This document shows positions 5,307 to 57,159 of a stretch of DNA of 64,000 nucleotides, piece after piece. The number at the start of each line of letters is the position of its first letter. The stretch's first letter is position 1. Position numbers and translations under genes: made by a program. The DNA is from Escallonia rubra (taxonomy: Eukaryota > Streptophyta > Magnoliopsida > Escalloniales > Escalloniaceae), in contig JAVXUO010000785.1 in assembly GCA_033065855.1 (NCBI GenBank), positions 1-64,000 on the forward strand, in the 5' to 3' direction. Below the pieces are notes generated by a model. That model made no database searches. It worked only from the letters and a program-made list of their open reading frames with translations, and had not been told where the DNA came from.

Positions 5307-5642
5307 CATCCCACCACCCACACATCACCACGATCAACAACATTACAACCCAATCATTACCAAGCCACCACTTCCACTACCCACGGCCACATAACCATCA
5401 CCCCAACAATGCCACCATCTCATCACGACGTCAATTACTGCAACAGCCATCATAGCCAAACCCACAGTCATCACACAACAAGCAAACCACCCATCACAGG
5501 CATCCCACATAATCGTCTATTATACTTTAATGAGGTCTATACATTAATCCAAATAAAAAATAAACTATATTTGATTAGTAATCGCGTAGTTCACTGTTTT
5601 AGAGAGATAGAAGATATAATGCGAAAAAGTTGAATATATAAC
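4699..5642. other. Intergenic, no gene seen
   Basis: It holds a TA microsatellite at 5272-5301 and CA-rich sequence after it. The open frames there are simple-sequence artefacts. Confidence 0.5.
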
Positions 5643-6064
5643 TGTTACTACTTAAATCTTGATCGGGACCACAGCTAGGAAATGAGCATGCAAAATAGAA
5701 CACAGAGTGACCACCGGAGATGTTCCGGTGGAGGCGGCTCCGATGCTAAAGTTAGAACGTCACTACTAGAGTAGAACTCTGAATAGCAGAAAATGCACTG
5801 AGTGCTTGTGTGTGAACTTGTCCGTGTACCTGAGGATTTTCCCATTATATAGGTCATTTCCAGACTCCTTTCTTCTTTCGGACTCTTTTCTGACTGATCC
5901 TTCACGTATTAGAGCCATGTTAGGACTCTCCTTCTAGCAATTGAGTCCTAAACGGCTTCTATCACCTCTCTTAGAATCTGTCCCAATACAGATTCCTTAG
6001 TCCACTCAAGGTCAACCATGCCACGTGTCATCAGTTGGTTGGGCGGATATATTTAGCTATATCA
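5643..6064 (-). repeat. 3' LTR of the Tat element
   Basis: Terminal repeat of 422 bp, nearly identical to 15515-15936. It is the 3' LTR because the coding regions read on the minus strand. Confidence 0.95.
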
Positions 6065-6081
6065 TAATGCCCCCTACCTTT
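6065..6081 (-). other. Polypurine tract
   Basis: On the minus strand this reads AAAGGTAGGGGGCATTA directly upstream of the 3' LTR. It is the expected plus-strand DNA primer site. Confidence 0.75.
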
Positions 6082-6221
6082 GACGGTTCCCTCGAGTGAA
6101 CAGTTAAAGGCATATGGTGAAAAGACTGACCGAAGGCAGTTCAGCTATGAATTTTCCCTGTCTGTTATTTATCGGAATTTTTTAATATTCCACACTCAAA
6201 AGTATGTGCTAGGGAGATCTG

Positions 6222-6955
6222 ATCAGGAGATTTGGTCGTGAGACCTGGTCGGACATTCTGCTCAGGAAACGTGGTCGGGAGCTCTGGTCGGATCTCCTGG
6301 TCGGGATCTCTGGTCGGATTTCCTGGTCGGGATCTCTGTCGGACATCCTGATCGGGAGCTCTGGTCGGGATCTCTTGGTTGGGATTTCTGATCGGACATC
6401 ATGGTCGGGAGTTCTAGTCGGACCTCCTGTTCGGCAGCTCTGGTCCGGCCTCCTCCTTGCGAGCTCTGGTCGGGCCTCCTACTCGAGAGATCTGGTCAGG
6501 CCTCCTGCTCGGGAGCTCTGGTCGGGCCTCCTGCTCGGGAGCTCTGGTCGGACCTCATACTCGGGAGCTCTGGTCGGGCCTCCTGCTCGGGAGCTCGGGT
6601 CGGGAACCCTGCTCGGGAGCGCTGGTCGGGAACCCTGCTCGGGAGCTCTGGTCGGGCCTCCTGCTCGGGAGCTCTGGTCGGGCCTCCTGCTCGGGAGCTC
6701 TGGTCGAGAACCCTGCTCGGGAGCGCTGGTCGGGAACCCTGCTCGGGAGCTCTAGTCGGGAACCCTGCTCGGGAGCGCTGGTCGGGAACCCTGGTCGGGA
6801 GCTCTGATCGGGAACCCTGCTCGGGCAGTCTGTTCGGGAACCCTGCTCGGGCAGTCTGTTCGTGAACCCTGCTCGGGCAGTCTGCTCGGGAACCCTGTTC
6901 GGGAGCCCTGGTCGAGCAGTCTGCTCGGGAACTCTGCTCGGGAACTCTGTTCGGG
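6222..6955. repeat. 26-bp minisatellite (two 13-bp half units)
   Basis: About 28 copies of a 26-bp unit built from two related 13-mers, TCGGGAGCTCTGG and TCGGGCCTCCTGC, becoming irregular at both edges. Because 26 is not a multiple of 3 and the unit has no stop, several frames on both strands stay open (100-190 codons). These are artefacts. Tandem arrays between the coding region and 3' LTR are known in Tat/Ogre elements. Confidence 0.95.
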
Positions 6956-7114
6956 AGTAGTCTAATTATTGTGTTGCCACGTGTTAGGTGTAACGGTCCT
7001 TTAGCCGCCAAAACTAAGGCTGTTACAGTTCGAATTTCAAAATTTAATGCTCCGGGAATCGCGCAAGACACGTGTCTTAAATGCTGCCGCCTTTGTAGGG
7101 GAAGTTATTTCAAC

Positions 7115-7275: not shown

Positions 7276-9264
7276 ATGTCTTCAACAACTTCGAGTAGTT
7301 CTTTGTCACCTTCGAGTAGTTCCACAGAAAACGATTTAGAAAGTGATTCAGAAAGTAGATCCTCACAAGTAGGTACTTCAACTCATAACAGTCAAGTAGC
7401 AACTTCCACTCCCCAAACCAGCACTTCGTTTCCCCGTAGAGATGCTCTTGGGGAAATCAAAGATGAAGCTAAAGATAAGTTTGATGAAGACACTTGGTTC
7501 ACCGCAGATGAGAAGAGGAACAAGATAACAAAAGAAAGCATAGTCGAGCTTTTGGAAGAATGTCATTTGCCTCCTCCCTTCTTTGCTCGGGTTCCTGCAC
7601 TCCAAGAGCCTGCCAACTATGGTACGGACTTAGAAACAAGTGTCTACGAAGGCCAGATTAGGTCTGGCTATAGAATCCCAATGCACCCATTTGCCGTCGC
7701 CTTTTTTAACCACTATAAAATGACGCCAGGTCAACTTGTGCCCAACGGGTGGATGAAGCTAGTTGGCTTGATTTACCTTGTGCAAACCTCAGGGTATCTA
7801 GTGACGGTCCATGACTTCATGAGGTTATACCTTGAGTATGCTTTATAAAGAATGTGGCCAAATGTGTTGGCTGGTATTATATTCACAACCGGATCAGAGT
7901 GATAAAGGGGGGTCCCAAATCCAACAAAGGTTGGCACTCCCGATACTTCTTCATTCAGCGGCCAAGCGGCAAATGGGAGTTCCCAAGAAAGTGGAACGAT
8001 TTCTGTAAAGATTACGAAAAGAAAGGCTTATTGGCTCCCAGTGCTATGACAAAGAAACTGCTTGATCACATAAAGAGGATGGGTGTTCTCAATATTGATG
8101 AACCCCTTACAGATCAAGAGATGCAGCATGCGGGGCTCATTCCTCCTGCCCCCGCTATGCATGTTCCTCCAACTCCTGTTTTAGAACCTCGAATTGTTTC
8201 GAAGCCTAAGACTCAAGAACTGGCGATAGGAACATCGTCTTCTAGGACTTCAAGTCTAGGTAGAGTCTAAAGCCATGTTTATATATTTATATCCTTTCTT
8301 GTTGTGAACAAGTTATCTAACTCGGTTTTTGTTTTCTTACAGAAATGGCTGGCAAAGGAGAAGGTGCAAAAGGTGACTTTTTAGGATTGCTGCAAAAGGC
8401 TTCGAAGGGGAAAAGGAAGGAGAGCACAGGGGAAGGTTCTTCCCCTTTTGTAAAAAGGCTTCGCGCTCCTACTCCTCCAGTGCCTCCGCTTGTGGTCAAG
8501 GATATTTCCATCGACAAGGATCCAATTTTTCGTCCCAGATGGACCATTAAGAGAGGCGACTAGAGAATGCCCCACTCGCACGTCTCCGCTCAGCACTTAG
8601 CTCATGGGGTGTTGCCAAGTGATAAACTCATCTTGGAAAACCAGCCTCATGAGGCCTTTGCTATGGCGCACGTCCAAGCTGCTTACAACGTAATTTGAAT
8701 TACTTCATTCTTTTTGCGCTATCAATTAAACTCTCCCCGACCTTCTACCATATAATCATCTTCATTTTTTTTTCTTTTCAGGCATACTGCTATAGCAGCC
8801 AAATGCAGGACAGGTTCGCTATGGCAATGGATGTGGCCCGCAACGCCGAGACTGACAAGAGAGCAGCCAAAGGCAAGGCTGACAAACTTGATAAGGAGGT
8901 CAAGAACCTCAAGAAGGAGAATGTTGATCTGCTTACCAAGCTCGGTCGTCTTGAAAAAAGATGTGAGAAGCTAAGGCATGAAAAGGCCGAGATCGGGAAC
9001 AAGGCCATCCAGGCATTCCTTGATGGTACTGCTGGTGATGAATGGCTCCGGAAGCGGACAAAAGATAGGCTTTCCATCTTTCAGGAGGGCTTCCAGAAAG
9101 CCAAGGAGTTAACGGTGGCCAAGTATCCGAGCCTTTTTCTTGGACGACGTTGTGGTGCCCAGCTTTGAGTCGCTGTCGGGGGAAACTGCCGCACCTACTA
9201 AAGCTGGAGATGCTATTTCTCCCAGGGAGAAAAGTGTCCGATCCGGGAATGCTCCTGCATCTTA
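7276..9264 (+). CDS. Antisense ORF region of the Tat element (Transposase_28-like)
   Basis: Runs opposite to the gag-pol genes, between integrase and the 3' LTR. The N-terminal part (ATG 7276) is Ser/Thr-rich, then carries a block with YRIPMHPFAVAFFNHYK and GQLVPNGWMKLVGLIYL, which resembles the family called putative gypsy-type transposon (Transposase_28). A basic middle part follows. A Lys/Glu-rich coiled coil at about 8800-9120 (KADKLDKEVKNLKKENVDLL) follows that. Likely GT-AG introns lie around 8260-8341 and 8692-8782, so it is probably expressed as a spliced antisense transcript. Its role is unknown even in well-studied Tat elements. It is not whole as read here. The start is chosen because a TATA-like box lies suitably upstream. 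Confidence 0.6.
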
Positions 9265-15511: not shown

Positions 15512-15514
15512 AAA

Positions 15515-15936
15515 TGTTACTACTTAAATCTTGATCGGGACCATAGCTAGGAAATGAGCCTGCAAAATAGAACACAGAGTGACCACCGGAGATGTTCCGG
15601 TGGAGGCGGCTCCGATGCTAAAGTCAGAACGTCACTACTAGGGTAGAACTCTGAATAGCAGAAAATGCACTGAGTGCTTGTGTGTGAACTTGTCCGTGTA
15701 CCTGAGGATTTTCCCATTATATAGGTCATTTCCAGACTCCTTTCTTCTTTCGGACTCTTTTCTGACTGATCCTTCACGTATTAGAGCCATGTTAGGACTC
15801 TCCTTCTAGCAATTGAGTCCTAAACGGCTTCTATCACCTCTCTTAGAATCTGTCCCAATACAGATTCCTTAGTCCACTCAAGGTCAACCATGCCACGTGT
15901 CATCAGTTGGTTGGGCGGATATATTTAGCTATATCA
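15515..15936 (-). repeat. 5' LTR of the Tat element
   Basis: Partner of 5643-6064, same length, about four differences by eye, followed by the ATAAC duplication at 15937-15941. Confidence 0.95.
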
Positions 15937-15974
15937 ATAACTAACACCACAAGTGAAAAATTAAAGAGAGAAAC

Positions 15975-45360: not shown

Positions 45361-45596
45361 CTCTCTCCGTGCCAAAGTAATTGCTCCATATTGACTTTGC
45401 ACGCTAATTTAGGTAGCTAATCATGTTTTGTAAGTTGTCCGTTATGCCCTCTAGTGAGTCTTAATAAGGAGGTGTGTCCCATTAATAATGGAGTGGTTAA
45501 GGTTGGTAATATAGTAGATACATAAGGGCAAAAATGAAACAGTTTTAAATTTTTATATTGTACATATGGAAACTAAGCAATAATTTCGGGATGTCC
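45361..45596. mobile_element. Stowaway-like MITE
   Basis: A 236-bp element beginning CTCTCTCCGTGCCAAAGTAA (the Tc1/mariner Stowaway start, normally CTCCCTCCGTCCC) and ending with the inverted AATAATTTCGGGATGTCC. TA dinucleotides flank it at 45359-45360 and 45597-45598. It has no coding capacity. Confidence 0.7.
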
Positions 45597-45599
45597 TAA

Positions 45600-46435
45600 G
45601 ATGAAAAGTTGATCAATAATTGCCACCTTAGGCCAATTAGGAGGATTTTCCTTCCCCTAAGAATGCCACGCCATCCATTCGAGAAGTTGCCGGTTTCAGG
45701 AGAGAAGAGGAAACTCTGGCAAGTGCAATACTTACCTTGCATTACTCGGGCAAAAAAGGATTCCGGGTTTGCCATAATTCTCCATGCAATTTTGGAGAGT
45801 AGAGCTTGATTAAAGAGCCTAGTATCTTTGAATCCAAGCCCACCAAAGTCCAGTGGTCCACACAACACATGCCAATTGATCTCATGCATGCCACGATTAA
45901 TCTCATTTCCTGACCACCAAAACCTTTCCAGCAAAGAGTCAATCTTGTGGCATACATGAGCGGGAAAGAAACATACCTGCATATGGTAAATTATGAGAGA
46001 TTGAAGAACATATTTGATAAGAGTGGCCCGTCCAGCTTTATTCAAAAGAACCCTTTTCTAGCTCACACATCGATTTCTGACGTTGTCAATCAAGTCTTGA
46101 AAAAATTCCTTCCTCTGGGTAGTGAGATCGAGCGTGGTGCCCAAGTAGGATCCAAAAGATGTTGTTAATTTGAATCCCACGCTTCTAGTCACATAATAAG
46201 CATCAACCAGACTAGCATTTGGACTCAAAGTGATGGAGGACTTTGTGAAATTTATTTGTTGGCCTGATTCCGAGCAATAAAGCTCCAGGGTTGATTTAAT
46301 CGAGTCAATAGATTGAGGCGTAATCTTTGTATATATCATGGCATCATCAGCAAAGAAAATGTGATTTCTAGGAGGACTATTTGTGCCTGCTTTGATACCA
46401 GGAATCAAGCGCATATCTTGGGCCTTTTAAAGATC
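45600..46435 (-). pseudogene. L1-type LINE reverse transcriptase fragment
   Basis: Minus strand. The upstream piece (46414-46058) holds the reverse-transcriptase catalytic motif FADDAMIY and GQQINFTKSSI. The downstream piece (46045 to about 45600) holds the post-RT region NKAGRATLIKYVLQSLIIYH, LLERFWWSG, GPLDFGGLGFKD and FNQALLSKIAWRI, typical of plant L1 elements. These proteins reverse-transcribe LINE RNA at the target site. The fragment lacks the endonuclease and RT N-terminus. A frame change lies between the two pieces near 46050. It abuts the Stowaway-like MITE. No poly(A) tail is seen. Confidence 0.88.
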
Positions 46436-46830: not shown

Positions 46831-47105
46831 AAACGCGTGCGCGCGCGCGCACACACACACACACATATATATATAGACACACGCGTACACACATACATAT
46901 ATATACACGTAGACACGCGCGCGCGTGTACACACACATAAATATACACGTACACACGCGTGCATGTGTAAAGACACACACACATAAACACATGTGTGTGT
47001 AAAACACACGCACGCGCATACATATATACATATCTATGAATGTGTGTGTGTGTTGGGAGGGGGGGGGGGAAGCGTGCGTGCACGCGCGAGTGAGTGTTTG
47101 TGTTG
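46831..47105. repeat. Long alternating CG/CA/TA tract
   Basis: About 270 bp of CG, CA and TA dinucleotide blocks ending in a G-run (about 47057-47070). The minus-strand open frames full of Cys, Val and Tyr here are simple-sequence artefacts. Confidence 0.9.
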
Positions 47106-47194
47106 GAGCTAATCTGTTGCTCGCGCACACAACTTCAATTAAGTTGTCCACTCCATCTGAACAGATCTAGCTTTTTTTTTTTTTTTTAAATAAT

Positions 47195-47475
47195 ATTGTC
47201 CGCTACATAATGTAGCGAACGGATATTTTGTCCAAAATGCCCATAGATGCCCGTCATTTATATGGAACAGTGCCCATCCGCTATATTTTGTAGCGGACGA
47301 CTTTTGATTTGACAACAAGTCAGGTCAAAAGTCGTCTGCTACGTAATGTAGCGGACCACTTTTTCCCTACCACACGTCGAATATGTCCCCTTCGTCCTCT
47401 AGATTATCTCGCGGACGATGGAACAGTCCTCTTTTTCGAAAGAATTCTCGTCTGCCACATTATGTAGTAGACAGG
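47195..47475. repeat. Left palindrome cluster of the PMD/Ulp1 element
   Basis: Four palindromes of about 21 bp with core CTACATAATGTAG. The second and third are linked by an inverted repeat (GACGACTTTTGATTTGAC ... GTCAGGTCAAAAGTCGTC, loop AACAA), giving a stem over 20 bp long. Confidence 0.9.
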
Positions 47476-47871
47476 TGGTATAAAAGAAACGACCCCTAAT
47501 TTTGCAAGTCTTTTTTTCCTTCTTTACTATCTTCGCAGTAGCTAGCAAGTAGATCTACAAACTTTGCATCTCCAAGCCCTTGAATCTTCCAAGTAAACCC
47601 CTAAATCGTGCAATTAACCACGTAAGTTCACAAATTTGTGTATAATCTTATTACGCATGATTTTGATGATGTAGTGTGTGTGTATTATGCATGTGCTAGT
47701 GTTGTCAAAGCTGGAATTGCCAATGTTTGATAGCAATTTACGAACTTGATGTATTATGTATGTATAGATGTGCATATAGATGATGTACTATGCATGTGCT
47801 AGTGTTGGCAAAACTGCCAACATTTGGAACAGTTTACTAACTTGATGTATTTGCTTAATTTCAGTCAGAAA

Positions 47872-49787
47872 ATGGCGTTGAATCCCAGACCCGAAGATCC
47901 CTCCGTCTTGTATGACGAAGAAAACCATATTAGTACAACAATTTGGAACGGACAAGTAAGATACTATTTTTTGAGATTATTTTTTTTATTTTCAATCATG
48001 AACGTTGTATATTTTTCTTAAATATGCTTTGTTAAGCCACTTGTAGCGTGGAGGTTACACCCGCTTCAGAAGCATTTGTTGCGTGGAATGGGGTTTGGTA
48101 CTTTTACCTATGGGGATTTTTTTCCTCAACATGACTGGACTTTAGTATGTGATTTCGTTGAACGGTGGAGAAGCAAAACGAATACGTTTCACTTCCCACT
48201 TGGAGAGATAACAATAAATTTTGAAGATGTAGGGTACATCTTAGGGTTACCCGTGACCAGCGGCCAGTTTGATTTGCTAAGATTGATAGGCAACATAAGA
48301 GATTTGCTAGGGACAAATTTGGCGTGATACCCCAAGACCAGTTTGGGCACAGTAGAATAAAGTTGAAGTGGTTGGCAGACTCGTTTGCAGTTTTGTTGGA
48401 ACCCTTCATGGAGGGGATGCTAGTTATGCACACAAAGGCTTTCATGTTCTATGCGATGATGGCCATTTTGTTCCCAACGACGATGAAGAACACAGTCCAC
48501 ATGAAGTATTTAGCTCTGTTAGATAACTTGCAAGAGGTTGGCAAGTATGCTTGGGGCGGAGACACAATTGCATACTTGTATTGCGCTCTGCACAAAGCAA
48601 CGAGGACCGAGTACAAAGCTATATGTGCATGTCTCTCATTGTTGCAGGTATATCATATCACCTCTCTTAATTTTTTTTTATTAGTCACTGCAAAATTAGT
48701 TTTGACCATACTTCACCTATTTTTCTTTGTTATTAGGTGTGGTCTTATGAACACCTCAGTGTCAGACGCCCCCAACCTAGGCCCAATACCCCAAATATCT
48801 TACGCGCTTGGGGGCGTACAGCCGGAGAGAGAGCCATTACCCGATAAGAGATGACCCATATCACAATGTTGTCTTCTATCAGGGGGAGTTCGACATGTTA
48901 TCTATGGTCCAAATATGTTGGGCACCGTATGAGAGATTAAGCATCCAGGTGGAAGAGTGGTACGTCTTTACGCTCTTTCGATTGCAACGCACTCCATTAA
49001 TCCATTGGGAGATTATGGAGTGGCAACTATCTAATCGTGTCATGCCACAGTTGGAGTTCCTGCAGGGTTTGCCAACAAATGTCCCAAACATGAGACCTAA
49101 CAGGAACCCACCGAATGTGATGTTCGGGCAGGTGGATGCCATCGAACTGTCCGGAAAGGAGATTGGACTATGGGTGTCCAGGCAGGACACACTTTCAACT
49201 ATGGTGTTGGAGCCCAACCATGTAACCAGCATTGACCAGTATCTGCAGTGGTTCAACCGCATCACTCGGATGAGAGTACACCCAGTGTCACGGGCAATAG
49301 GAAAAAAATACCAGCCCAAGGGTGTAATTGATCAACGAAGAGCTTTCTATCTCGTAAGTTTCCTATTTAAGTTTCATTCTTATGCTGATCTGTTGATCTT
49401 ATTATTTTTAATTTTAAAAATTATCTTTCTTGATGTAGGTTGATGCCTCGCTCGCATTCTTCTAGAAATTGAATGAACGAAGAGATCTTCTGGATGCCAT
49501 GGGAGCGAATCTTCGTTCCCAGGTTGAGATCTTGGCGCATAGCTGCGGGGACCTTGTGAGGGGCTATAGGGGATAGCCTTCAGGAGTGAGCCCGGGAATG
49601 AGTCATCTCTCATAGCAGCCTTTGGGTGTGAGTGAGGGAATAGTTGATCCCTTAAGGCAGCCGTCAACCGTGGGCGAGGGAATGGGTGATGCTTGGGGGC
49701 ACTGTTTGGCCGTGAGCAAGGTAATGGGTCGTTCCTAGGTGTAGCCTTCGGCTATGAGCCAGGGAATGGCTCATTGGGACCAGTGGA
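47872..49787 (+). pseudogene. Plant mobile domain (PMD, MAIN-like) gene, decayed
   Basis: PMD proteins of plants occur both as host silencing/genome-stability factors (MAIN, MAIL) and as transposon passengers. Exon 1 (47872-47955) starts MALNPRPEDPSVLYDEEN, a usual PMD opening. Exon 2 from 48037 continues in phase with PLVAWRLHPLQKHLLRGMGF and the core FVERWRSKTNTFHFPLGEIT, INFEDVGYILGLPV. Then come RIKLKWLADSF, YLALLDNLQEVGKYAWGGDT and, after an intron (48648-48737), VWSYEHLSVRRPQPRPN. Exon after 48850: HNVVFYQGEFDMLSMVQICW. Introns with GT-AG ends are 47956-48036, 48648-48737 and 49354-49438. A one-base frame change near 48320, a stop near 48851 and stops after 49439 mark it as broken. It continues into a 14-codon repeat and then the Ulp1 region. 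Confidence 0.82.
49577..49786 (+). repeat. Five tandem 42-bp (14-codon) units
   Basis: Exactly five 42-bp units in the frame of the last PMD exon. They encode variants of QPSGVSPGMSHLS-like peptides (QPLGVSEGIVDPLR, QPSTVGEGMGDAWG). The units are diverged and a few carry stops. Confidence 0.88.
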
Positions 49788-49899
49788 GTGAGCCCTTATT
49801 TGAGTTGCTTAGGGACTTGGATGTTACATAAGATCCCTAGAGTCAAGCCACACAAGATTTGGACTTCGCGAACTTGTCCTTCTTAGAGTCGTTATAACT

Positions 49900-50928
49900 C
49901 GTCTCGTGGTTGGGAACTTCCACTTCGGGCCTTGGGATACCTGAAGAGCCTCAAGGAGAAACTAGGCAAAAATATCCCTCACGCTGATCCTACCCTTCAT
50001 ATGTCAAAGGTCATCCATTTGCGCCCTTGAAGCTGAAAAAACATGCCCTTGTCCACGAACATTGGTTTAGTGAGCCCCTCCTAACTAAGCTCTCAAGTTC
50101 GTTCAATGTTCATATTACGAAGTCATGTGGGACAGTATGTTCTCCCTCAAGCTTGGAGCTTGGTTGGATGATACAGTGATGAATGCCTACATCCAGCTTC
50201 TGATCCATAGAGAGGGATATGGGAGATGCGTATCCTCGAGTTTTTATGTCTGATACGCTTTTTAGTTCTTTACTTCTTGGACATTGGCCAATAATTTAAG
50301 GTAAAAAATAAGCGGACATTGAGCAGATATCGTCCCGATCAAGAGCTCACAAAATTTTTCACTACTACAACGAATTCGGAGAGTTACCATGATGCGAATG
50401 TCTTTCTACTACCTGTCATAGACCACAACCATTGGTTTTTTCTTTGCTATCAACCATCAGCTATGTCTGTTTCAATCATCGACAATCTCCACAAAGATAT
50501 GAAGTGTATGCCTCTTAAGGGCCTTTACAGTGCAACCTTGGGAGCTATGATGAGAATAACATTTTTCTTTACAGTTTATCTATTTCTTAATTCGACTCTC
50601 ATAGCTTACATTTCTTTTATTATTCCACATGATTTGTTTTGTGCCATTCTTTGCAACCTCTGTAGGCTTAAAGTATCGGCAAGGCCAAAACTCGATATTC
50701 GGGTGAAGAAAAGTAGGCCCATGCAAATTAACGAATCAGACTGTGGTGTCTATGTGTTGATGTACATGTAATTCATTTGTCGGTCCGAGAGCCTCAAGAA
50801 GCACAACTGGATCCAAGACAACATAGACAACTTTAGATATATGATAGTTTGGCAAATTCAAAACTGTAAACCTATGGAAGTTAAAGATTTTGTATTTTCG
50901 GCTAAACCACATATGTTTTTTGTGTAAT
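49900..50928 (+). pseudogene. Ulp1-type cysteine protease (C48) region
   Basis: SUMO-protease-like domain. The visible catalytic set is His in DHNHWFFLCYQ (codon 50430-50432), Asp in SIIDNLHKD (50481-50483), Gln and Cys in PMQINESDCGVYVLMYM (Cys codon 50742-50744). The order His-Asp-Gln-Cys is that of Ulp1/SENP enzymes. Upstream, 50100-50230 reads as the domain's N-terminal half (LDDTVMNAYIQLLIHREGYG). A likely intron separates the Asp and Cys parts (about 50550-50664, acceptor TGTAG). A TAG near 50247, upstream of a possible intron, and a stop directly after VLMYM (50769) interrupt the frame. An AATAAA overlaps the final stop at 50926-50931. It may have been one gene with the PMD region. Confidence 0.8.
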
Positions 50929-51218
50929 AAAATAGCAGTTGATATGATTATTGAGCACTTCTTTCTAGTATTGATTGTGTGATGTGATTCGAAAATGTCA
51001 TGTGTTTCTGGTTTGAGTATTGATATGTGGATGTGGTGCGTTATAGTTGAGTATCGCTTTGAGAATGTGGTGTGTCTGTGGTTGCTTTGAGAATGGTTAA
51101 AACAGGTTGATAGGGGAGAATGTGGTGTGTGTGTGTGTGGTTGCTTTGAGAATAGTTGAAAAATGTTGATGGTGAGTTAAAAAAAAAGGCAAAATAGGTT
51201 TTAAGAGATGCTTTACTG

Positions 51219-51547
51219 TCCGCCACATTATGTAGCGGATGTAATGCAATGTACTAAGTCTTTGTTCCCTCATCCGCTACATTATGTAGTGGATGGTGGA
51301 ACATAATGCTTTTTTAGTGGTCTTTTTCTCTATAAGTGTTGGGACCAAGAACCCTGAATTTTTTGTAAGTGTGGAATGGATAGTTTATGTCCCCCCGTCC
51401 GCTACATTGTGTAGTGAACGGTGGAACCAAATGCTCTTTTAGGTGTCTTTTTTCTCTATAAATGTTGGGACCAAAAACCCCAAATATTTTCTAAGTGTTG
51501 GAATGGGTAGTTTATGTCCCCTCGTCCGCTACGTTATGTAGTGGACG
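51219..51547. repeat. Right palindrome cluster with ~126-bp tandem units
   Basis: Palindromes at 51219, 51273, 51398 and 51525. The last three head tandem units of 125-127 bp that share TTTTCTCTATAAGTGTTGGG and TAGTTTATGTCCCC. The first is a partial unit. Confidence 0.9.
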
Positions 51548-54500
51548 TGTAACATCCCAGAATTTCCACAACGTTAACACTCGCTCGATCATTTACACTA
51601 AGATAATAATACCTCAACCTCAACCAAATAATGCCACAAGATGTCAGAGCAACTAAACATCCATCAATGTATATTCTCTCAGTGTACAATCATATATGGA
51701 AACTAATTTAAACCTGAATAATAAACTATCAAAGTCACCCACGCAGGGGTTCTAACAATCAATACCAAAATTAAATTCCTTTCTTTCTCTCGCTCAACTC
51801 TAATCCCTTTTCGAGCAACTTAATACTGCTTATTACCTGCGGAAAGGAAGTCAAATGAGAGTGAGCTTTCGAGAGCTGAGTAAGGTCGATCAAAGATTTA
51901 AAAACAATCAAAAATGATTCTGGCAGTTTTACATTTAAACCAACTAACAACTTTAAAAATGGAGAACATAACGATTCTAATAATTTTCTATATACAAACA
52001 AATGATAATTTTAAAAGGGTTTTCAAAGAAAACCACATCATTTCAATATAAATATAGGGATGAATATCAACTCAATCCCTTAAATCAATAATCATTTTGA
52101 AACACTTCAGGTGCAATAAAACAGAAAACATGAAACATTGAACAGAAGCAGTACGATGTAGCAAAGCCACCCCGGCAGTGCTCGATACGATTTACATATG
52201 CATATGTACACTGACTAGTCCATCTAGGTACTAGTTTAACCCAACCAACAGACCATCCTTATAACTCCAACAATACAGACCATCCTTATAACTCTCAGGT
52301 TCCTAACTCATGTCAACATTGAGAAGCAATAAATAGAATTAAAAATATTTTACGATGATTGAGTCAATAAACAGATAAGTGTGAATCATAATTTCAAACG
52401 ATCGCTAAATGGCTTAAATTTGGGTTTCATGGGCAGTTTAAAAATATTTTTATATCAATCACAAAATCAACATTTAATGTAGTCTGTAAAACTGTTAAAA
52501 TAAAGCATTTGAAATCAAACAATGATATAGGGTTCGGAGAGAAAATCCTTACCTCGGTCCATGCTAAGCGATGCAACCAACCTTGATCAATATTTTCTGA
52601 ATAAACCTAGATTGGAAATCCATTTGTTAGAACACAATCTATGGTGCGATATTATAAACCTAATATCAGCTACCTGCAACGTGCTCACTTCTAACTCCGA
52701 AATTGCTCAACTCAATGAGCGCCTCGTACGCGGCCAACCTAACCGAGAACCCGGTACGTTCTTTAATGCGTAACAGTATTTTAAATTTATTATAAATTAC
52801 AATAAAATAATTTTATAGCTTAAAAATTATAAAAAGTCAAAGTATGAATTTTTCTGAATTTTTGAATATTGTTTAATTAAAATAATTTCCTTAAATGCAA
52901 TAAAAACCCATAAATTGCCAAAATTGCTTCTAGCTAAAAATAAAGTCCCATAATTTTTGTAACAGCTTTAAAATATGTAAAACAATTATAGAAATTTAAA
53001 TCAGAAATTAAAAGGCATTAAAAATATTTTTAAATTATTCATTTTGCTAAAACCAATGCGATACGGAAACCATAGAAAACCAACTCCAAAAATCATCAAA
53101 TGCAGACTGAGTCTTATTTATACCATAAAGACATTACTATAATTTTTCCCAGGACATTTTCAGGGTTTAATGGCTCAAAAAGAATTTTACAAATCTAAAA
53201 TTACAGAAAATACTAAAAATACATACGATTTCAGAAAATTATAAACTTTTGCCAGAAATTCTAATATAGTCTAACGTGTTATAATGTAAAGTTTTTCGTG
53301 CTAACGATAACCGTGTGCTAGTTTACGCACGTATCAAACTTAACGCTAACCCAAATTACCCACTCCTCCCTTTCCATTTCACCACTATACTCCCCACACA
53401 AAACACACTAAGGGTGTGTTTGATAAAACTGAAATTTAAGTGCTGAAAATTTAAAGTGCTGAATTTGTACAACTGAAAATTCTAAACTGCTGAATGTTAA
53501 GCACTGAAATTTTTTTGGTCTTGTCTGAAATTTAAGTGCTGAATTAATCTATTCTGTTTGATAAAACAGAACAACTGAAATTTGAAAATTATTTAATTTG
53601 ACAATAATACCCTTTATCTGTTTTTGAAGATTTAACAAGCTTGTTAGACAATTGAATAATTGAACGTATTACCATATCAGTGAAGGATACTTCAAATTCA
53701 ATTTTACAGTCATGAGCATAGCTTTGAAACACAAAAGAATATTTTATTCATTCACACGATAAGAATTCACAATAATTTTTGGATAGCCAAAAGTCACATT
53801 ATTACACAAATGAATTATAACATCAAATTAACTAATTGAGTTGCAATCTACTCTTGTAAATTAACCATAAATAATTGATCAGCTTGTTGTGCTTCTGCTC
53901 TCATATCTACTGTATTTTTGTTATGGCGACCACGATCTGAATGAAAAAAGGGGATTTTTTTAACCAAAGACATGTAAACTATAAAATGCTATAAACCAAA
54001 TCATATACAGAAGAAAGAATAGAAAAGAATCCGGATAGACACGATGAAAATCAAGAGAACAACAAGCTGAAACTCGATGACAATCAAAAGAATTCAGGTT
54101 TCACATAATTTGTTCAATTATTTTTGCTTTGAGTTAACAGGATCATGGGTCTACTCCATTTCCTAGTAAGCTCCCTTCTCTAGTCAGCTCCATTTCCTTT
54201 CTTTCAATAGCAGGCCAAATCACTACAGGATCATGGGTCTCCTCTACCGACTCTATTGGCTATTGGTCATAGTTTCCTGCTGTTTTGGCAGGAATACCAA
54301 CGACTGAATTGCAACTCCAAAAGGCTCAGTTCAATGCAATTGTCTCCAACACAGCAGTATCCAAATCAAGTGCATAAAAAATTGATTCAGTGCATTCTAA
54401 TTCATTCAGTGCATCAAAAACTCAGTTTGCAATAGCTTGTGATGGCGACCACCATCTGGGTATTAGAACCTAGGGTTCCCCTTTCTGGGTATATTCAGAT

Positions 54501-56064
54501 TCAAGAACAAATAGGAAAAAAATCACAGATTAACCAACCCCCACGTAATAAAGCACAAAGAAATTGCGCACCAGCAATTTGTGGTAGGAGTACCTAAGAA
54601 GAGATCGTTATTGCGGCTCAATTAGCAGGAAGGAGAGGAGGCAGTGGAGAAGAGGACTGGAAAGAGGAGGTAGTGAAGAAAAGGAGAAGAGGATCGTGAA
54701 GAAGAGGAGGCGAGACAGTGAGGGCAGATTGGTAAAAGATTTAATGACGTAATCATTAAGCATGTTCAGTGATAAGTGATAAGTCAGCTATGGATGACTT
54801 AAAATATTAGTCTATAATTAACATATCACTTATTATTTTAAGTGATAGAAAAAGTACGTTATCAAACGCACTTATTTTAAAACCATTGAAAATTTTCAGT
54901 TTTAAGTACTGAATTGAGTTATCAAACACACCCTAAATCTGCCCAGCATTAGGTCTCTTCTCTCTCTCTCTTTGACGCACTCAAACACGCTTGTACCCAG
55001 CCATGTCAGCCGTGCAAACACAGCCATGGCAGCCCCTCCATGGCTGTCCTCACTCTTTCTTCCTTGCCACTCTTAGACCCACATATATACTTGCACTCAT
55101 TATACTCTTACTCACAGGCTACACACACGCGCACACAAAGGCAAAGACTCACACACAGTTTATAGCACACACTCAAGCCACAATACACTCAGCACACACA
55201 AAAACACACACACCCATGAAGCACTCACACGCACATGCAACAAACACACCCTCACAAACTTTAACACAGCTACTGCCTCACGACAGTAGCTGCTCTCATT
55301 TGCACCAAACCCACACACCACACACAATAACGCACTCACACACAACACGCACTAAGGCACACATTACTCACACATGGAAACACCAACACAGGCAGCCTCT
55401 CTCCCTTCCTCTTTTACACACATATTCCCCATCCCAAAGTGATACTTAAATGAAAATTTCTTTATAGATACTAGAGCATTTCAAACCCAATAAGTGTTTA
55501 GAAATACAAGAACATTTCAAAGCTGGAAACTTAAAAAATAAAATTAAAATACTAGAGCATTTCACAAACACACCACACTCATCTGCTCACACACACCACT
55601 TTGCATACATTCACGCACACTCATACACACATGCACAGCACACACAGATCCGCACTTTCACGGCACGCTCAAAACACACACCAACTCACACAACGCACAC
55701 ACGCACACAACTCCCTCAACGCACATCCAATCACAGCATGCTGCTCTCTCTCTCGCACAGTTCCTTCTATAGCAGCATCTCCCACGGCCGCACTAAGTAC
55801 ACACACCTGCACGCACACTCAACAGTTCACAACAGCCACCTTTTCCTCTCTCATAACACCTACAAACACACACTAACTCTCTTCATCTTCCACCCACAAC
55901 CCACCATGATTGCTACCATCAAAGACCTTGCATGACCACAAGATCATCTCTCTTTCGGCAGCCGTAACCATCCACCAAAAAACCCCTCGGCAGGCATGGT
56001 TGCTTTGCAACCTTATGCATTTTTTTCTCAAACCCAAACGGTACAAGGACACAGCCCCTAAACC
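51548..56064 (-). mobile_element. Tekay-like LTR, minus strand, interrupted and truncated
   Basis: Starts TGTAACATCCCAGAATTTCC, the reverse complement of Tekay-like LTR ends in this window. It carries the reverse LTR box at about 51861-51888 and CA-rich blocks at 54990-55440 and 55560-55880. A PIF/Harbinger-type element (53412-54933) lies inside. Without that it is about 3.0 kb. The far end is lost at the hAT boundary at 56065. Confidence 0.75.
53412..54933. mobile_element. Non-autonomous PIF/Harbinger-type element
   Basis: A 1,522-bp insertion with ends GGGTGTGTTTGATAA and TTATCAAACACACCC (perfect 13-15 bp inverted repeats), flanked by TAA (53409-53411, 54934-54936). A 3-bp TAA/TTA duplication is the mark of PIF/Harbinger. 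Both ends also share a CAGTACTTAAA / TTTAAGTGCTG-like subterminal stretch. Nothing inside resembles a DDE transposase or Myb-like protein. Confidence 0.75.
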
Positions 56065-56640
56065 CAGGGGCGGAATCAGGAATTTTTTTCAGGGGGTGCA
56101 AAAATTATATGTCCGTTACCATTTTTTTTATTAAAATAATATTTAAAATAAAGTGCACTTATAAAGCATACAAAAATTATTATTAAGTTTCACGAGAGTC
56201 ATTAAAGACTCTTTACAAGTACAACACAAAAAAAAAATACAAATTATACTCCGAGCGTTTACAAGCAAAATTACTAAATTACTATTCGATGAGGCCCTGA
56301 AGATTGGTAGCGCTTGATAATAGCCTCGTTCCCAATAGTTTTGAAGACATTTTTCTCAATGTAGCAAATCAAACTATCATTCATCCATTCATCTCCCATG
56401 CGATTCCGAAGTCGAGTCTTTATTATCTTCATTGCAGAGAAAGCCTTTTTCCACAGTAGCAGTTGCAACAGGCAAGAGTAAGACCAGTTTTATGAGCAAG
56501 TACACCAAATGATATTATATCACATCTTTTTTCAACTCAACTAACTTCATAGCAAGTTCACCAATTCCCTTTACATCATAAAGCTCTTCACATGACCGCA
56601 CATCCATAATATAAGTCTCAAGCTGGCTTCCAAGATCATG
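56065..56640 (-). pseudogene. hAT transposase C-terminal fragment with element end
   Basis: The element end CAGGGGCGGAATCAGG at 56065 is of the plant hAT type. On the minus strand, 56640 to 56274 encodes LGSQLETYIMDVRSCEELYD, then VLLLPVATATVE and FSAMKIIKTRLRNRMGDEW, the hAT dimerisation domain. The family excises and inserts hAT elements, and the C-terminal domain mediates dimer formation. A one-base frame change lies near 56450 and the N-terminal catalytic region is absent. Beyond 56640 Tekay-type gag begins, so the element is cut there. Confidence 0.85.
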
Positions 56641-57151
56641 GTATTCGAGGTGATGGGGTGCTCAGACAAACATAAGGTGAAGTTAGCAATTTTTCAGTTG
56701 ACAGGCGAGGCGAACCAATGGTGGAAGATGACCTCAAGGATGATGACGGTACAAGAGAAAGCAGATCTCACATGGCAAGCATTTCAAGACCGCTTCTTCA
56801 CGAAGCATTTTCCCCAAAATGTGAAGGAACCTATGGAGAGGAATTTCATGAGGATCGCTCAACATCCAAATGAGACGATCACGGAGTATGAGGAGCGATT
56901 TTCTCGAATTTCAAGATTTGCCCCACATGTTGAACCAATGGTGGAAGATGACCTCAAGGATGATGACGGTACAAGAGAAAACAGATCTCACATGGCAAGC
57001 ATTTCAAGACCGCTTCTTCACGAAGCATTTTCCCCAAAATGTGAAGGAACCTATGGAGAGGAATTTCATGAGGATCGCTCAACATCCAAATGAGACGATC
57101 ACGGAGTATAAGGAGCGATTTTCTCGACTTTCAAGATTTGCCCCGCATGTT
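56640..57151 (+). CDS. Tekay-type gag fragment with tandem duplication (fossil)
   Basis: Retrotransposon gag (capsid) domain: KLAIFQLTGEANQWW, TWQAFQDRFFTKHFPQNV and NETITEYEERFSRISRFAPH. A 220-bp segment is present twice in tandem (56712-56931 and 56932-57151) with only a few differences. Broken fossil with no primer-binding site or pol. Confidence 0.85.
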
Positions 57152-57159
57152 GACACCTC

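Follow-up and report, generated by a model that had tools for sequence, protein, structure and literature searches.

Introduction

Several described groups of plant Mutator-like elements (MULE) resemble the locus considered here, a putative gene of Escallonia rubra in which a plant mobile domain (PMD) is joined to a Ulp1-like domain of the SUMO-protease type between two clusters of palindromes. The gene lies within positions 1 to 64,000 of contig JAVXUO010000785.1, and this whole 64-kb stretch is hereafter called the window. MuTAnT and AutoMuTAnT from Medicago are MULE with foldback-like terminal inverted repeats (TIR), a Jittery-like transposase and many short non-autonomous members, located mostly in (TA)n (PMC4486113). 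The SaTar elements of guayule and rice have MULE TIR in microsatellites and form stacked arrays (PMC5907723), and the foldback elements FARE1 of Arabidopsis are classed as MULE (PMC4486113). In MULE with a PMD (MUDR, MUDRAVI2, MDR and others) this domain is often antisense to the transposase (PMC6446971). The Kaonashi/KIU VANDALs and the Ulp1-bearing MULE of melon, rice and grape have a Ulp1 domain in an accessory gene (PMC13317346). The present locus is read, with a probability of about 0.87, as the left portion of a two-gene FAR1/Jittery-type MULE, in an old and decayed copy that is interrupted by a retroelement and belongs to an abundant family. The anatomy, the copy number, the shared ends, the target preference, the coding constraint and one empty site support this reading directly.

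SUMO proteases act on chromatin regulators, and the Ulp1 domain is also present in host genes. The host PMD proteins MAIN and MAIL1 act in gene silencing, and Ikeda et al. speculate on an anti-silencing role for MULE-borne PMD (PMC5418596). VANDALs have degenerate TIR (PMC10398659), and the short motifs to which VANC binds lie within non-coding tandem repeats (PMC5735166, PMC10398659). The TIR of MULE contain transposase-binding sites, and MULE with multiple TIR have been described (PMC3310237). In the consulted part of the paper on the Amaranthus EPSPS cassette, plant-mobile-domain genes and a Ulp1 gene appear as separate entries.

Results

The Probable PMD-Ulp1 Gene of the Window

The profile PF10536 (PMD) matches three open stretches of the + strand (E 3e-14, 4.4e-19 and 3.3e-10), which cover profile positions 15-57 and 84-184 at 48130..48659, with a change of frame inside, and 222-346 at 48862..49254. 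PF02902 (Peptidase_C48) matches the Ulp1 domain at 50361..50768 on the same strand (E 3.8e-5), which probably contains an intron. All of these matches are above the Pfam cut-off; the scans of these window pieces gave the two families, and DUF1985 stayed below its cut-off (E 0.097). A putative first exon occupies 47872..47955 (+), with an ATG at 47872 and a GT donor at 47956. Between the two domains lies a decayed linker (49439..50294, +) with several stops, which is repeat-like, with QPLGVSEGM-like units recognized by eye in the translations of the window and of the relatives L010, L012 and L015. The order, the strand and this linker support the assignment of PMD and Ulp1 to one gene. The original prediction, made from the letters of the window alone, had placed a PMD, a linker and a Ulp1 domain in one orientation between two palindrome clusters; this arrangement is borne out by the Pfam profiles and the motif search, and the profile search that it had proposed for the PMD and peptidase C48 was positive for both.

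The Ulp1 piece of the window retains the catalytic residues H, D, Q and C, which give the domain the signature of a putative active Ulp1 protease. All four are retained in 8 of the 21 copies examined, a count that takes in the window copy and both near-duplicates, L017 and L018. The PMD frame shifts near 48,300 and, together with the stops of the linker, this makes the window copy a decayed pseudogene by inspection. The strongest among the PMD matches listed are four neighboring open frames at C922:1278226-1296817 (643-689 aa, 373-384 bits), which are possibly host genes.

The Two Edges

The palindrome, GTCCGCTACATTATGTAGCGGAC, is found at nine sites of the window at up to 5 mismatches, and at none in one shuffled window. 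All nine fall into two clusters. The left one (47198..47472) has five sites of 23 bp each, at 47198, 47276, 47334, 47394 and 47450, of which the weak site 47394 and site 47450 have 4 mismatches each; the second (51218..51546) has four, at 51218, 51272, 51397 and 51524. The frame of four palindromes on each side, as first proposed, is right as to the existence of two clusters and wrong in its meaning on the right, where the cluster is internal to the element. Palindrome clusters that flank a gene may lie in the middle of an element rather than at its ends.

On the left, the element begins at 47103..47119 (+) with a relative of the terminal motif GGAGCTGATCCNTTG (2 mismatches). The earlier bound of 47195 is corrected to about 47103, at the start of a MULE-type terminal repeat beside a compound CA/TA/GT microsatellite (46831..47102); the latter is the probable target, as the ends of the relatives also adjoin dinucleotide repeats. 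The left palindrome cluster lies inside this TIR, and its first palindrome is 93 bp inside the terminus, vs. about 113 bp in many relatives. The right TIR is missing from the window, and no terminal motif at up to 3 mismatches accompanies the right palindrome cluster.

On the right, a search with window positions 51450-52150, in which the best 40 candidates were scored, returned 42 rows, two of them on the contig of the window itself. Among the 40 other rows, 35 begin at query 96-100 (window 51545-51549) and five at 86, 121, 121, 178 and 189. From this common start it follows that a different repeat begins at about 51548. The profile Retrotrans_gag (PF03732) matches at 56596-57093 (E 6.6e-17) and, given this Gypsy-type gag and the TG at its start, the sequence from 51548 is best read as a 5' long terminal repeat (LTR). 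A separate LTR/Gypsy-like retroelement is in this way taken to start at 51548 and to include at least 51548..57093 (+), and no second copy of its start was found on the contig of the window among the scored matches. The bound of 51547, formerly taken as the end of the element, is instead the junction with this retroelement, which is best read as cutting the MULE inside its internal palindrome cluster. The gag region was considered as a part of the MULE and rejected, since it belongs to another repeat. It contains a tandem duplication of about 220 bp at 56712-57157, with 97.8% identity.

A Convergent Transposase in the Relatives

The genome, in which relatives were sought, comprises 566 Mb, and counts taken from the genome-wide listings are lower bounds (the best 40-150 matches were scored and 100 pattern places listed). 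The search with 47195-51547, proposed in the original prediction, gave 118 matching pieces from the best 40 scored candidates, the long ones being 68-78% identical, and revealed a multi-copy family; neither a single copy nor copies with LTR, which had been named as contrary outcomes, were seen. The PMD is present in each of 20 fetched loci (L009-L028), accompanied on the same strand by Ulp1 in 19 of them and alone in L019.

The window has no transposase (best tblastn match, E 0.053). The absence of a transposase, also part of the original prediction, holds for this copy and fails for the relatives, since 12 of the 20 carry a convergent one downstream of Ulp1 (L009, L010, L011, L013-L018, L026, L027 and L028). 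L017 (on C1509) and L018 (on C70), with 2,300 and 2,001 masked bases, lie on different contigs and share 95.3% identity over 4,415 bp, being either the result of a recent duplication or two haplotypes of the same locus; counted once, they leave 11 of 19. The transposase of L012 is located immediately past the end of the fetched piece, at C2385:150057-151236, and in L022 and L025 transposase pieces are found upstream and were counted as neighbors. L025 also contains, at 8141-9001 (-), a 287-aa open frame of another kind, which has a similar counterpart in L031 and looks like a hAT-type dimerization region. In 11 of the 12 loci with a convergent transposase, palindromes lie between the Ulp1 and transposase genes, the exception being L015.

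The transposase is of the FAR1/Jittery type, and the MULE transposase that had been proposed as a test for the relatives is in this way present. In L010, PF10551 (MULE) matches two open reading frames (ORF; E 7.4e-26 and 3.3e-33), directly preceded by matches of the L033 ORF (8629-9245), which itself matches PF03101 (FAR1, E 1e-14). The C-terminal transposase pieces of L015, L027 and L028 have no Pfam match and were assigned by order and tblastn. The first part of L033 (1-1640), with the FAR1 start, variant palindromes and a terminus, was compared with 40 scored places; in 28 of them, its own locus among these, the alignment reaches query position 1596 or further, with 85-100% identity. The transposase follows in register at 17 of the 40, and 13 of these are stop-free open frames of 774-776 aa.

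The complete order is visible on C598 (L010 and L007), which reads terminus (about 54,400), transposase, palindromes, Ulp1, PMD and terminus (about 62,400), about 8 kb in all; the 676-base gap between L010 and L007 falls within a continuous transposase match. The following pairings rely on a comparison of match lists by coordinates only. At C85:81230-90361, a PMD (+) and a transposase in a 783-aa frame (-) lie between two exact termini, and on C1-C91 six of the 11 listed MULE-domain copies (C17, C64, C70 and three on C85) are enclosed by two exact termini 7-10 kb apart. The copy on C84 has one exact terminus, 7.5 kb off on the PMD side. Ulp1 and MULE matches are at most 5 kb apart on at least eight contigs (C27, C272, C1209, C1738, C2254, C2265, C2268 and C2764), convergent in eight of eight, and on C1738 the PMD is also in the expected place.

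Shared Ends and Microsatellite Target

The short relatives L034, L036 and L040 have long inverted repeats in common, which in L034 measure 302 bp at 99.7% identity, the flanking TA repeat excluded. From the outside inward, the TIR consist of a terminal motif close to GGAGCTGATCCNTTG, a hairpin and about four palindromes, of which the first lies some 113 bp from the outer end. The conserved ends that had been suggested as a check are in this way common to the relatives. Such short elements have palindromic repeat modules at both ends, as in foldback (FARE-like) MULE, and relatives with foldback-like ends do exist. For the present locus, on the other hand, the idea of palindrome clusters framing a non-autonomous or foldback element is abandoned, with the right cluster internal and the right edge set by a retroelement. 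In L029, L036 and L038, elements with palindrome-bearing TIR are stacked with short TA repeats between them, similarly to the SaTar arrays.

The terminal motif occurs genome-wide at up to 1 mismatch at 2,847 forward and 2,920 reverse places (5,767), vs. 27 and 26 (53) for the control. In the window and L009-L048 there are 77 terminus matches at up to 3 mismatches, of which 65 are followed inward by a palindrome at no more than 400 bp; the other 12 were left out of the microsatellite count. A dinucleotide run of at least 12 bp adjoins 53 of these 65 ends, vs. 45 of 1,969 random 30-mers, and (TA)5 or longer adjoins 47. The family prefers TA-rich microsatellites as target. The 30 bp adjoining the end of the window copy hold only a 6-bp run, which places it among the 12 ends below the threshold.

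Symmetry of the Palindromes

With up to 3 mismatches allowed, the palindrome is matched genome-wide 18,651 times in forward and 18,986 times in reverse orientation, and the backwards control is not matched at all; as the motif is a near-palindrome, the two counts are mostly the same sites twice. The information is 1.61 bits per position inside the palindromes and 0.15 in the flanks among 177 sites of L029-L048, and 1.35 vs. 0.17 bits among 143 sites of the window and L009-L028; the palindromes were picked by similarity to the consensus, so that selection accounts partly for the high values inside and not for the low ones in the flanks. In 15 aligned terminal repeats the palindrome columns are 87.5% identical, vs. 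66.4% for the spacer columns.

Paired changes were counted in 75 distinct cores from 224 sites, with identical cores taken once. At 33 pair positions both sides have changed and are still complementary, vs. a mean of 17 and a maximum of 26 in 1,000 shuffles, a control that does not give a probability because related sites are not independent; 100 pair positions have changed on one side only. The palindromes of the L033-type elements and of L022 are variants in which the symmetry is retained. This symmetry would fit a dimeric DNA-binding protein or a hairpin-driven homogenization, and does not tell which protein binds.

Mobility and Coding Constraint

The flanks of L045, a non-autonomous member, occur joined and uninterrupted at four places with 92-95% identity over nearly all 365 bases, and at a fifth with 74%. 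At the one empty site read at its junction, the left flank is exact up to the terminus and 7 bases differ on the right. This site supports the insertion of one non-autonomous member, L045. The mobility of the PMD-Ulp1 elements themselves is suggested by their copy number and shared ends.

The median ratio of nonsynonymous to synonymous changes (dN/dS) is 0.50 for the PMD (21 copies, 210 pairs; shifted frames 0.74 and 1.02), 0.58 for Ulp1 (19 copies, 169 pairs; 0.96 and 0.81) and 0.56 for the transposase (13 copies including the upstream piece of L025, 78 pairs; 0.69 and 0.84). The comparisons are query-anchored by codon. They are moderate evidence that the PMD, Ulp1 and the transposase are under similar coding constraint, since the controls are mostly below 1 and the pairs share history. 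Nearly all copies carry stops, and decay pulls the ratio towards 1, so that the constraint probably acted on their ancestors in all three.

Other Features of the Window

To the left of the microsatellite, a reverse-transcriptase-like fragment at 46058-46426 on the - strand scores 23.3 bits with PF00078, vs. a cut-off of 29.6. Two GC/TG/TA microsatellites, partly inverted with respect to each other, enclose it, and the adjoining frame 45596-46054 has no family match. The fragment was rejected as a part of the MULE and belongs to another repeat. Further away, 5640-6067 and 15512-15940 are direct repeats with 98.6% identity over 429 bp, about 9.9 kb apart, which look like the two LTR of a young retrotransposon. 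A minisatellite-like tandem array with many overlapping short-offset self-matches occupies 6213-6958.

Discussion

Proposed Element and Points Against It

The original proposal of a MULE relative whose PMD gene is fused to a Ulp1-like domain is upheld by the multiple copies, the MULE transposase of the relatives and the shared ends. The full element would run from a microsatellite through a long TIR with palindromes, the PMD-Ulp1 gene, further palindromes and a convergent FAR1-type transposase gene to the second TIR and a microsatellite. The transposase would recognize the terminal repeats and move full members, and in trans those lacking a transposase, into TA-rich microsatellites. The palindromes would serve as symmetric binding sites within the ends, and PMD-Ulp1 would be a second element protein retained by selection, most probably as an accessory factor that helps the element to escape silencing.

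Several results weigh against this reading. Neither a transposase nor a right end was found on the contig of the window (tblastn of the window, and contig searches with the best 40 candidates scored), and the same contig searches did not reveal the other half of the element on contig C2469. No convergent transposase is present in 7 of the 20 fetched loci, within the fetched stretch or the follow-up search, and 4 of the 11 listed MULE-domain copies (C16, C27, C81 and C89) have no exact terminus nearby. L015 and L019 lack a palindrome at up to 5 mismatches, no exact consensus palindrome lies inside C85:81230-90361, and the L033-type element has variant palindromes; consequently, the consensus palindrome and the transposase are directly linked in decayed copies only. 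The transposase pieces of the 13 loci in the dN/dS set carry 2 to 11 stops each, and the in-frame ratios are only moderately lower than their controls, as five of the six out-of-frame medians are also below 1. At the one L045 empty site read there is no clean target-site duplication (TSD), and the 9-bp duplication expected in the original prediction is not seen there; a TSD of MULE measures 8-11 bp, and most ends sit in dinucleotide repeats, which would hide it.

Alternative Readings and Possible Role of PMD-Ulp1

That ordinary host PMD and Ulp1 genes lie in repeats by chance has a negligible probability. Both domains do occur in host genes (for the PMD, PMC5418596), but the copies number in the dozens, share their order and ends, have decayed frames and are linked to a transposase, which led to the rejection of this explanation. 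A non-autonomous PMD-Ulp1 element bounded by the palindrome clusters and mobilized in trans is very improbable. It would account for the window copy and for the seven relatives without a convergent transposase, whereas the right edge is a retroelement junction, the right palindromes are internal in relatives with a transposase and no terminal motif at up to 3 mismatches lies beside the right cluster of the window. Both of its components, the palindrome clusters as the two ends and a family devoid of transposase, were rejected, the former on the junction and the internal position in relatives and the latter on the convergent transposase.

The role of the palindromes within the two-gene MULE is a different matter. 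It is nearly an even chance that they bind the FAR1-type transposase only, with PMD-Ulp1 in an unrelated role or as a captured passenger. In many ends the first palindrome lies some 113 bp inside the terminus, a position that would suit such binding, as would the transposase-binding sites of other MULE TIR (PMC3310237) and the palindromes of short elements whose interior yielded neither PMD nor Ulp1. On the other hand, a further cluster lies between the genes, where the recognition of ends needs none, and the PMD and Ulp1 look constrained. A tentative alternative is that PMD-Ulp1 is an anti-silencing factor of the VANC/KIU kind, which would bind the palindrome arrays in the non-coding parts and remove silencing marks, or SUMO from silencing proteins. 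It would agree with the presence of palindromes at the ends, in the spacer between the genes (the two non-coding zones) and in short members, with the symmetry kept by paired changes (33 vs. 17 on average and at most 26 in the shuffles), with the repeat-like linker and with a constraint on PMD-Ulp1 like that on the transposase. Precedents are the motif binding of VANC (PMC5735166, PMC10398659), KIU with its Ulp1 (PMC13317346) and the suggestion of Ikeda et al. (PMC5418596). Nevertheless, the palindrome may bind the transposase instead, and the TIR of VANDALs are degenerate (PMC10398659) whereas those of the present family are long.

A stronger form of this idea, in which the PMD-Ulp1 of a FAR1-type MULE recognizes the arrays of dyad symmetry that its own family has in spacer and ends, and removes silencing that depends on SUMO or PMD, would make it an independently evolved second sequence-specific anti-silencing system; this is doubtful at present. 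If true, it would have let thousands of members without a transposase spread. The interest of the two-gene MULE lies in the question of why a PMD-Ulp1 gene is kept opposite the transposase and beside arrays of symmetric sites, and the two domains side by side near such sites allow the escape of elements from silencing to be tested on a concrete case.

Comparison with Known Systems

The combination of PMD-Ulp1 with a FAR1-type MULE was not found described in the literature searched, which did not extend to subscription journals and Repbase. MuTAnT shares with the present family the foldback-like TIR, the preference for (TA)n, the Jittery-like transposase and the numerous short members. It differs in that 218 elements and one putative autonomous copy with a single ORF were described, in a terminal sequence, GGGGTTTGCTAGAACA, unlike the present one, and in its demonstrated 9-nt TSD; the text examined mentions neither a PMD nor a Ulp1 gene (PMC4486113). 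SaTar is similar in its microsatellite location and stacked arrays and differs in its demonstrated 10-bp TSD, and the text examined contains no occurrence of palindromes and no accessory gene (PMC5907723). FARE1 is compared by description only (PMC4486113). The PMD antisense to the transposase is a feature common to other PMD-bearing MULE and to the present family, whereas the Jittery dicot/monocot group appears in the survey table with FAR1 and without PMD, and the string "ulp" is absent from its main text (PMC6446971). The present family, like KIU, has Ulp1 in a MULE accessory gene; KIU VANDALs are non-TIR elements in which Ulp1 has a VANC-type partner, and here the TIR are long, the transposase is of the FAR1 type and the partner is a PMD (PMC13317346). 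The TIR of L034, long and near-identical, likewise set the family apart from VANDALs, which are defined by absent or degenerate TIR. Each part has precedents in MuTAnT, SaTar, FARE, the PMD-bearing MULE and KIU, and their combination looks new.

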